From assembly GCA_017303805.1 (NCBI GenBank), contig JAFLBQ010000003.1, positions 1 to 64,000 on the forward strand: a DNA stretch of 64,000 nucleotides, in the 5' to 3' direction. Below the pieces are notes generated by a model that saw nothing but the letters and a program-made list of their open reading frames with translations, was not told where the DNA came from and did no database searches. Positions 36,879-38,929 of the stretch are shown piece after piece (the first letter of the stretch is position 1; each line of letters starts with the position of its first letter). Origin of the DNA: Cytophagales bacterium (GTDB lineage Bacteria; Bacteroidota; Bacteroidia; Cytophagales; Cyclobacteriaceae). The position numbers and the translations under genes were made by a program.

Positions 36879-37484
36879 TTATTTCTTTAACCGATAGTGG
36901 CCAATAATTTTATATTGAAACAGGATATCTTCTGCCACCTGACCATCGCCAATGTTATGAACAATAAGCAGCCGTTGTGAATTTTCGGCTTTCTGGTTTA
37001 CCACAATGCCAATGTGTAAAATGCCGCGGCCCAGGTTCCAGCAAACTACATCTCCGGGTTTATAGTTGGTTGCGTTATCAGCTATCGAAAGTGCACTGCC
37101 TTGCCGCTCGAAAAACTTCATCAGATTAGGTACCCTGCGATGGTCGATGTTGGTATCGGTTTTCTTTAAACCCCAATGGTTGGGGTAGGCATCAAAATTT
37201 GCCTGCATATCTTCATGCACTTCCTGTTGCAAATCTACACCCACTTTGCGGTAGGCACGCACTACCACATCAGTACAAACTCCGCGGTCGGCCGGCACAT
37301 CACCATTCGGATAATCAATTTTAAAGTACTGCGGATCGTAAGAAACTTTTTGAGCAGTTAGCGAAAGTGCAGCCTTCGAAAGTTCTTGAAAGAAGTCCTT
37401 TTGTGCCTGCGCTTTTGCCTCGTTAGTAAAGGTGAATGCAACCGTGGACAAGGCCATCCAGATAACTACCAACGCATCTTTCAT
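36879..37484 (-). CDS. Secreted DUF1287-family protein (possible cell-wall amidase-like fold)
   Basis: A 201-aa precursor. After the signal peptide, the DUF1287 core is visible: YPNGDVPADRGVCTDVVVRAYR with a conserved Cys, IDHRRVPNLMKFF, PGDVVCWNLGRG and LHIGIVVN with a conserved His. Cys-His arrangement and size fit an NlpC/P60-like papain fold, suggesting a cell-wall peptidase; that is inference. Its first 27 residues share two blocks in the same order and frame with the 5' end of the gene at 38930-39361, as if that 5' end had been copied with a deletion. Confidence 0.88.
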   Translation of the reverse strand: MKDALVVIWMALSTVAFTFTNEAKAQAQKDFFQELSKAALSLTAQKVSYDPQYFKIDYPNGDVPADRGVCTDVVVRAYRKVGVDLQQEVHEDMQANFDAYPNHWGLKKTDTNIDHRRVPNLMKFFERQGSALSIADNATNYKPGDVVCWNLGRGILHIGIVVNQKAENSQRLLIVHNIGDGQVAEDILFQYKIIGHYRLKK

Positions 37485-37776
37485 GAGTTTACAATTTTTG
37501 TTGCAGCTTACATGGAGTGACCAGTATCAGCATAGGAGTAGAAACTGATAGTGAATTTAATGAAAATTCCCAGGGACAAATTTTCTTGAGTTAACTCCGC
37601 TATCAGGTTTACCGAATAGGAGGAATACTACACAGCGGATTTAAATACGACCATTAAAATTAACTTCATCTAAATATAGCCAACTGCCAGAAATTGGCCA
37701 TAAAAAGAGGTTTTGCGGAGATTAACCTACTTATTCTCCGCAAATTATGCGGAGAATAAGTACATTTGTGGTTGTT
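37485..37776. other. Divergent intergenic region between the DUF1287 gene and the Fic gene
   Basis: The right half holds the four-copy operator array and the -7 box of the Fic gene. The left half (37485-37700) shows nothing I can assign. Confidence 0.5.
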
Positions 37777-37789
37777 ATGCGGAGAATAC
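37714..37789. promoter_or_regulatory. Four-copy operator array at the Fic promoter
   Basis: TGCGGAGAATAA or a one-mismatch variant occurs four times: 37714-37725 (plus, one change), 37731-37742 (minus, exact), 37748-37759 (plus, exact) and 37778-37789 (plus, one change, overlapping the start codon). The second and third form a perfect 12-bp inverted repeat. The first three are spaced 17 bp apart centre to centre; the fourth is 30 bp further. The -7 box lies between copies three and four. This is a strong binding-site array, probably for the winged-helix end of the Fic protein itself. Confidence 0.8.
37761..37768 (+). promoter_or_regulatory. -7 box of the Fic gene
   Basis: TACATTTG matches TAnnTTTG and ends eight bases before the ATG at 37777. 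This makes the 37747 ATG impossible as a start, since it would lie upstream of the promoter. Confidence 0.6.
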
Positions 37790-38895
37790 GTTACATCCAC
37801 GAACTCGGCCAATGGCCCGATTTTACATGGGATCAGACCGTGGTAAATGATCTACTGGCGCAAACCCGCTACCTGCAAGGAAAAGTGCTGGGCCGCATGG
37901 AATCGCTGGGGTTTAACCTGCAAGCCGATGCTTCCTTACTGGCGCTTACCCACGAAATAGTAAAGTCAAGCGAGATAGAAGGTGAAATGTTGCCACAAGA
38001 TCAGGTACGCTCGTCTCTTGCACGAAAATTAGGACTTGACGTTGCGGGATTAGTTGCCTCTAACCGTAACATAGATGGAATAGTGGAATTGATGTTAGAT
38101 GCTACACAAAACTTCAAGCAGCCGCTTACTGCCGAAAGACTTTTCCATTGGCATAGAAATTTATTTCCAGATGGGTTTAGTGGCGCTTATAGAATAAATA
38201 CCGGAAACTGGCGCACAGATGAAACCGGCCCGATGCAGGTTGTGTCTGGGCCAATGGGCAAAGAACGCATTCACTTTGAAGCGCCAGCTGCCAACCGGTT
38301 AGCAACCGAGATGGAAAAATTTCTGTTGTGGTTCAATTCAGATTCATCCATGGATTTACTGTTGAAATCTGCTGTTGCTCATTTCTGGTTTATAACGATA
38401 CATCCGTTTGATGATGGCAACGGAAGAATAGCGCGCGCTTTATCCGATATGCTGTTAGCGCGTTCTGATAATAGTACAAAACGCTTTTATAGTCTTTCCG
38501 CCCAAATCCGAAAAGAAAGAAATGAGTATTACAATCACTTAGAAAAATCTCAAAATGGTGATCTGAACATAACCCAATGGATAAGTTGGTATTTAACATG
38601 CCTTTCGCATTCACTGGAATCAACCACGCAGGAATTTAATAATGTACTTGCTAAGGCAACTTTTTGGGAAAAAAATAAAACCACCGCACTTAACGCGCGC
38701 CAGAAAATAATGCTCAACAAACTGTTAGACGGATTTGAAGGAAAACTGAACACCAGCAAGTGGGCCAAGATTACCAAAACATCGCAAGACACCGCGATGC
38801 GCGATATACATGCGTTGATGGTGCTTGGGATATTAGAGAAAGAAAATGCAGGAGGCAGAAGTACGCATTATACATTAAGATTAACAACCACCTGA
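37777..38895 (+). CDS. Fic-domain AMP-transferase with DUF4172 and winged-helix C-terminus
   Basis: Starting at 37777 because the -7 box lies just upstream, the 372-aa protein has an N-terminal DUF4172-like part (RIRYIHELGQWPDFTW), the inhibitory motif S-x3-E-G within VKSSEIEGEML, the Fic core with the active-site loop HPFDDGNGRIAR, and a C-terminal winged-helix domain (KITKTSQDTAMRDIHALMVLGIL). The catalytic His and the autoinhibitory Glu are both kept, so it should be an active, self-restrained AMP-transferase acting on a protein target. It probably regulates itself through the operator array. No separate antitoxin gene is adjacent. Confidence 0.9.
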   Translation: MRRIRYIHELGQWPDFTWDQTVVNDLLAQTRYLQGKVLGRMESLGFNLQADASLLALTHEIVKSSEIEGEMLPQDQVRSSLARKLGLDVAGLVASNRNIDGIVELMLDATQNFKQPLTAERLFHWHRNLFPDGFSGAYRINTGNWRTDETGPMQVVSGPMGKERIHFEAPAANRLATEMEKFLLWFNSDSSMDLLLKSAVAHFWFITIHPFDDGNGRIARALSDMLLARSDNSTKRFYSLSAQIRKERNEYYNHLEKSQNGDLNITQWISWYLTCLSHSLESTTQEFNNVLAKATFWEKNKTTALNARQKIMLNKLLDGFEGKLNTSKWAKITKTSQDTAMRDIHALMVLGILEKENAGGRSTHYTLRLTTT

Positions 38896-38929
38896 AGTAG
38901 GATTTCAGGATTGCAAACTCTTTGCCCGT

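Follow-up and report, generated by a model that had tools for sequence, protein, structure and literature searches.

A putative self-operator of DUF4172-Fic genes whose half-sites follow the recognition helix

Among the closest described systems are two Fic proteins that bind DNA, and our comparison with them draws on the available excerpts of the published accounts. CccR of Yersinia pseudotuberculosis, a class II Fic protein, represses its own promoter, where its C-terminal helix-turn-helix (HTH) attaches to inverted repeats. Binding is much weaker in a mutant of the dimer interface, and CccR is also a secreted toxin (PMC9755527). CbFic2 binds DNA through a winged helix, and dimerisation on DNA, which was of random sequence in that work, turns it from AMPylation to deAMPylation; its authors called for a specific binding sequence to be studied (PMC10628234). 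Here we describe an array of four short repeats in front of a fic gene of a Cytophagales bacterium, in a stretch of 64,000 nucleotides (positions 1 to 64,000 of contig JAFLBQ010000003.1) that we refer to as the window. Judged from the promoters of related genes, this array is a predicted operator common to the DUF4172-Fic family, in which half-sites TGCGGNGAATAA of alternating orientation follow one another at steps of mostly 16-17 bp, close to the promoter and start codon. Most probably the Fic enzyme itself is what binds this operator, and it would thereby repress its own gene.

The array in the window and across the family

The array comprises four copies of TGCGGAGAATAA, two exact and two with one mismatch, in the order + - + + and with start-to-start steps of 17, 17 and 30 bp. 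An earlier note on this DNA had claimed such an array, with three copies on the plus strand and one on the minus strand, arranged around a -7 box with the last copy on the start codon, and both the copies and their placement are as it described. We take the sequence TACATTTG to be a presumed -7-like box of the Bacteroidota type. Site 4 begins at the second base of the ATG at 37777, the likely start of fic.

With at most one mismatch allowed, the window contains no hits besides these four sites, and 3000 dinucleotide shuffles of positions 37600-37800 gave a maximum of one. With up to two mismatches, the whole window holds eight hits where 5.45 are expected, which is near chance; the signal is therefore the array, with its clustering and geometry, and not the lone 12-mer. 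The full dyad formed by sites 1 and 2 has a single occurrence in the 4.29-Mb genome. The shorter TGCGGWGAATA has five hits, three in the array and two elsewhere, and no second site was seen by eye in the 261 bases around each of these two outlying 11-mers. A global regulon was rejected on the same counts, only two of the five genome hits lying outside the array and the full dyad being found once.

Two explanations that dispense with a DNA-binding protein can be weighed at this point. Sites 3 and 4 are in frame, 30 bp apart, and both read ATGCGGAGAATA as MRRI, so that the copies at 37747 and 37777 might reflect chance or a repeated start peptide under coding constraint. As that open reading frame (ORF) does not include sites 1 and 2, site 2 being on the opposite strand, as relatives retain such sites upstream of the gene, and as shuffling yielded one hit at most, we consider this explanation next to negligible. 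The repeats might also act as RNA, in a hairpin or attenuator of the leader, since a perfect 15-bp inverted repeat (37728-37742/37748-37762) scores as terminator-like too. However, the half-site tracks the DNA-binding helix, as described below, and sites 1-3, being upstream of the -7-like box, are probably not transcribed. On the latter ground the RNA element was rejected, and we regard it as highly improbable.

Related genes carry similar sites. From 175 relatives found, the best 80 were kept, and 78 of these together with the window gene have at least 100 bp upstream (n = 79). If a family site is defined as a match at no fewer than 9 of 11 positions, there are 245 sites in the 12,221 bp upstream of the 79 family genes versus 136 in the 533,180 bp making up the rest of the same loci, a density about 80 times higher. 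At least one site is present in 77 of the 79 promoters and at least three in 58. With these 77 promoters and a full dyad that occurs once in the genome, the motif does not prove to be common and unlinked to Fic genes, the outcome that the earlier note had named as speaking against its proposal. In the enlarged sample, DUF4172 was found in 33 of 296 Bacteroidota genomes, 64 of 198 genomes of one order and 69 of 299 in the phylum of the Parvibaculum genome; the family search of G469 took in one genome, and 30 loci repeating places already sampled were removed. A blind search for repeated 11-mers placed 147 of 187 promoters above the 95th percentile of the shuffled controls (each promoter shuffled once, before the last enlargement).

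The spacing of the sites follows a rule. Numbering the recognition-helix residues S336-I344 of the window protein (SQDTAMRDI) as H1-H9, we took as the geometry set the 175 promoters with D at H3 in the helix and 120 bp upstream. Of 147 plus/minus neighbours, 125 are spaced at exactly 17 bp, and of 98 minus/plus neighbours, 73 are spaced at 16-17 bp. Sites 1-3 of the window obey this rule, and the 30-bp step to site 4 is limited, among the 175 promoters, to the window and its closest relative, L003. A plus site on the ATG at the gene start is also found in L004, L023 and L033. Further subfamilies (L178, L158, L181, L180, L162 and L179) carry other upstream repeats, for example TGGGCTATAA, TGTCCTATA and TGATTAATA.

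The probable binding protein and the proposed effect of binding

The sequence of the half-site varies with that of the recognition helix. Inspection of 190 loci associated TTCGG with N at H7, TGC(A/G)AC with K or R at H2, and TGAG(C/G) with the subfamily that has A at H3. A code scan was then made with positions 2, 4, 5 and 6 left free; it gave a hit in 174 of 176 loci with D at H3, and the commonest base was taken for each locus. Position 2 is T in all four H7=N loci versus 2 of 170 H7=R loci. Positions 5-6 read AC in 14 of 21 H2=K/R loci versus 1 of 153 others, and among the H2=K/R loci AC is confined to those with I or V at H6 (14 of 16, as against none of the five without). Fisher values computed on these counts take no account of relatedness among the loci.

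This correspondence was put in the form of classes. The 253 source loci yielded 236 kept genes, two of them with less than 90 bp upstream; eight duplicate proteins were dropped, and 11 loci have no gene within limits (L033, L067, L196-L198, L217, L220, L274 and L289-L291). One alignment omits three loci whose reading frames are interrupted or misplaced. Among the 234 loci with 90 bp upstream, 220 fall into four helix classes (A, K, N and B). The operator core of a gene's own class is the unique best fit in 201 of these 220 promoters (A 144/156, K 15/16, N 4/4, B 38/44), whereas 2000 label shuffles gave a mean of 111 and a maximum of 127. The class rules were drawn after the loci up to L198, those from L199 onward serving as the held-out set, which includes two near-identical proteins (L280 and L281). 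In this set the own core is the unique best in 36 of 40 loci of class A, 10 of 11 of class K, 2 of 2 of class N and the single one of class B, two further loci being unclassed.

Genomes with more than one family gene allow the comparison to be made within one cell. Fifteen were tabulated: eight have genes of different classes, six have a single class, and one has an unclassed gene. Across the eight mixed-class genomes, the own-class core is the unique best in 17 of 17 promoters. One genome has three classes and three operators (L277, L280 and L284), and the tandem pair at L201, whose DUF4172 parts start 1.3 kb apart, combines the helices SADTALRDI and SKDTAVRDI with the operators TGCGGAGAATA and TGCAACGAATAA, respectively. 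The six single-class genomes show a unique fit in 10 of 12 promoters; L287 and L092 do not fit. A match with the own helix in 17 of 17 promoters is what self-binding predicts and a shared regulator does not, and it therefore favours self-binding. Since the operator changes with the recognition helix encoded by the adjoining gene, even where paralogues are compared, the binder of the array is very probably the Fic enzyme itself, which lends support to the earlier note's proposal of a Fic enzyme acting on an operator at its own promoter.

A separate transcription factor might instead bind the array and control fic together with other genes. The binder cannot be named from sequence alone, and the two further single 11-mers in the genome would suit such a factor. 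Yet paralogues of the same genome carry different operators, matched to their own helices in all 17 promoters, the dyad occurs only once in the genome, and array and gene form one conserved block in L003. We therefore hold a separate factor to be very unlikely.

Several observations weigh against binding by the enzyme itself. On a FastTree tree of the protein minus its winged helix (174 rows), H7=N has two origins and the operator changed both times, and K/R with I/V also has two origins, for which the pairs with the same kind of operator change average 1.6 of 2. In addition, L146 (H3=Q) has TGAGG where L129 and L136 (H3=D) have TGCGG, an event judged by similar helix surroundings and not by the tree. 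Counting L146 as the fifth, independent changes thus number about five in total, and a sign test on the tree cannot reach 0.05 with so few; the case therefore rests on the paralogues and the held-out loci. No helix class could be given to 14 of the 234 loci, and 19 of the 220 classed promoters lack a unique fit to their own class. Individual loci also depart from the code: with K at H2, L264 retains TGCGG and L222 has TGCGAT; L047 (H2=R) has no AC; L221 (H7=R) combines two TTCGG sites with three TGCGG sites; the code does not account for L093 and L214 (HRDTARRDI); and L178, with H7=N in another subfamily, has TGGGC. Finally, at the threshold of 9 of 11 matches, nine of the 175 H3=D promoters lack a site. 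Four belong to K/R-class genes with another operator (L203, L105, L277 and L273), and L129 has the core with a different tail, which leaves L026, L047, L093 and L286.

With the Fic enzyme as the binder, R342 would contact the G at position 2 and D338 the C at position 3, and residue 337, jointly with 341, would affect positions 5-6. A Fic dimer would sit on each 29-bp converging dyad, adjacent dimers filling the array. The filled array would stand in the way of RNA polymerase, and the protein on site 4 would in addition prevent transcription or translation from starting, so that the enzyme would keep its own level low.

The position of the sites relative to the promoter bears on whether such binding represses. 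Of the 150 family promoters with at least two sites, 106 have TAnnTTT[GA] within their last 75 bp, compared with 12 of 150 after shuffling. In these 106 promoters, a site overlaps the -7-like box in 22, sites stand on both sides of it in 36, and only downstream in one. In 69, however, the sites are solely upstream of the box, a layout that would suit an activator too and that counts against repression. The protein might thus bind the array as an activator or to tether the enzyme, DNA binding mainly setting the enzymatic state, and the passage of CbFic2 from AMPylation to deAMPylation when random DNA dimerises it points in the same direction (PMC10628234). Against this stand the sites of the window, which lie on either side of the -7-like box and extend over the likely start codon, the 36 promoters with sites on both sides and the 22 with an overlapped box, and the fact that CccR, a Fic-HTH protein that has been tested, represses (PMC9755527). 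Because of the 69 promoters, we rate the activator or tether as unlikely but worth serious consideration, and we have slightly lowered our confidence in self-repression, which stays high. The repressor and the activator or tether roles could both hold at once.

It is also conceivable, if rather doubtful, that the array switches the enzyme as well. Fic dimers on their own half-sites would repress fic and have AMPylation off or deAMPylation on, the latter being what DNA brings about in CbFic2, and protein freed from them would become an active AMPylator with its gene derepressed. Such release might follow the loss or destruction of operators, for instance where a phage degrades the chromosome, or come about when they are outnumbered, and the helix-operator code would prevent interference among several such switches in one cell.

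The fic gene, its protein and its surroundings

The longest ORF call for fic begins at the ATG at 37747. We rejected this start because the codon precedes the -7-like box and because L003, a 90%-identical relative, has TTTGCGG at that position and an ATG at the position of 37777; the latter is thus the likely start. The coordinates of the features are given in Table 1.

Table 1. Features of the operator array and the fic gene in the window
Feature	Position	Strand	Description
Operator half-site 1 (putative)	37714..37725	+	TGCGGAGATTAA, 1 mismatch; with site 2, canonical converging pair, 17 bp
Operator half-site 2 (putative)	37731..37742	-	exact
Operator half-site 3 (putative)	37748..37759	+	exact; with site 2, diverging pair, 17 bp
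Operator half-site 4 (putative)	37778..37789	+	TGCGGAGAATAC, 1 mismatch; overlaps likely start codon, codes for MRRI
-7-like box (presumed)	37761..37768	+	TACATTTG, between sites 3 and 4
fic gene	37777..38895	+	372 aa, likely start ATG 37777; DUF4172 + Fic + winged helix
Inhibitory-helix motif (class II Fic)	37966..37983	+	SSEIEG, residues 64-69, fits (S/T)xxxE(G/N)
Fic motif	38401..38427	+	HPFDDGNGR, residues 209-217, fits HPFx(D/E)GNGR
Winged-helix domain	38695..38877	+	residues 307-367; AlphaFold2 secondary structure
Recognition helix	38785..38823	+	residues 337-349; Q337 (H2), D338 (H3), M341 (H6) and R342 (H7) covary with operator

The protein matches PF13776 (DUF4172; E 8.8e-29, over the cut-off) and PF02661 (E 5.7e-18). 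The closest solved structure is that of CbFic2 (PDB 8cil; E 2.6e-95, residues 7-369; template modelling score 0.85-0.89). Across 45 aligned sequences, H209, P210, F211 and D213-R217 of the Fic motif are invariant, as are E68 and G69 of the inhibitory motif. With its Fic and inhibitory motifs both intact, the fic product belongs to the class II DUF4172-Fic proteins, and the former motif predicts AMP transfer. In an AlphaFold2 model built from a 45-sequence input (mean predicted local distance difference test score 91.1), helices at 307-317, 326-333 and 337-349 are followed by strands at 353-355 and 365-367; together with the 8cil match, this supports the C-terminal winged helix that the earlier note had named. 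The PADLOC SoFic profile, which has no stated cut-off, matches the protein at E 2.8e-47, and the NCBIfam SoFic model NF046030 scores it at 60 bits, the cut-off being 550.

Array and gene seem to have moved together as a cassette, to judge from their conservation. Positions 37711-38897, a block that extends from 3 bp ahead of site 1 to 2 bp past the stop codon, share 87.7% identity with positions 2935-4121 of L003, as against 70-75% for the three other aligned parts, and the neighbours are arranged differently. Relatives of the window protein (E 1e-20) are present in 433 records of a plasmid collection, for example from Agrobacterium, Pantoea and Phaeobacter. Spread by phage was considered and set aside, only two weak phage records having been found.

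Two genes on the opposite strand flank fic, with 34 bp to the end of the downstream one. The divergent neighbour, at 36879-37484, is a DUF1287 (PF06940) gene that has the 292-bp intergenic region in common with fic. No antitoxin gene is evident beside fic among the ORFs listed there, which are overlapping or very short and whose relatives were not searched.

Comparison with known systems

Type II toxin-antitoxin systems likewise place a toxin-like enzyme under an autoregulated operator array, with the difference that in the window system enzyme and repressor would be one and the same protein. Self-operators may be general in genes for Fic proteins with a winged helix, as other loci of this kind also have repeated upstream motifs. 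The second Fic gene of the same genome (L002/L304, contig C1, about 429.8-430.9 kb) is of the Fic_N type (PF13784) and carries an array of five GTGCCCTTGTT-like sites; a PF13776 search of L002 gave no match. In a sample of 30 SoFic-type (Fic_N) loci, of which three have no ORF with a Fic motif, a repeated upstream motif exceeds the shuffle threshold of 9 in 21 of 27, and it is this proportion that suggests the generality. These genes resemble the window gene in encoding a Fic enzyme with an HTH-like C-terminus downstream of repeated motifs, but the motifs are of another sequence. According to the excerpts, a DUF4172 domain is mentioned for SoFic and its DNA binding had not been shown (PMC10628234), and a 47-residue antitoxin is reported for a Sofic of E. 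coli (PMC12249575).

CbFic2 has DUF4172, Fic and winged-helix domains in the same architecture as the window protein. It was studied on random DNA, and we found neither a self-operator nor autorepression in the excerpted account of that study (PMC10628234). A 2026 review restates the findings on CccR and CbFic2, and in its excerpts we found no family operator (PMC12894286). More generally, no description of the operator or of the helix-operator code was found in the open-access passages searched, most subscription papers and preprints lying outside that scope.

The present analysis proposes a candidate specific sequence for much of the DUF4172-Fic family, with helix residues that predict the operator of each protein, and the question raised for CbFic2 thereby becomes testable with natural protein-DNA pairs. 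The family also offers a collection of winged-helix/operator pairs that occur in nature and seem orthogonal to one another, and its promoters suggest that self-repression through an operator array may be common among these enzymes.

As compared by description, CccR and the window protein are both class II Fic proteins with a C-terminal HTH and an inverted-repeat operator at their own promoter, which in the window is putative. The CccR operator, AGATAATCAT-N26-ATGATAATCT, is one widely spaced pair, whereas the window has an array of TGCGGNGAATAA half-sites every 16-17 bp; this array has neither the CccR operator sequence nor its 26-bp spacer, the gap between the converging 12-mers being 5 bp. 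As far as the excerpted accounts extend, autorepression by a Fic-HTH protein is thus already known in kind from CccR, and what is new is the family operator, the geometry of its array and the natural code that links helix to operator.
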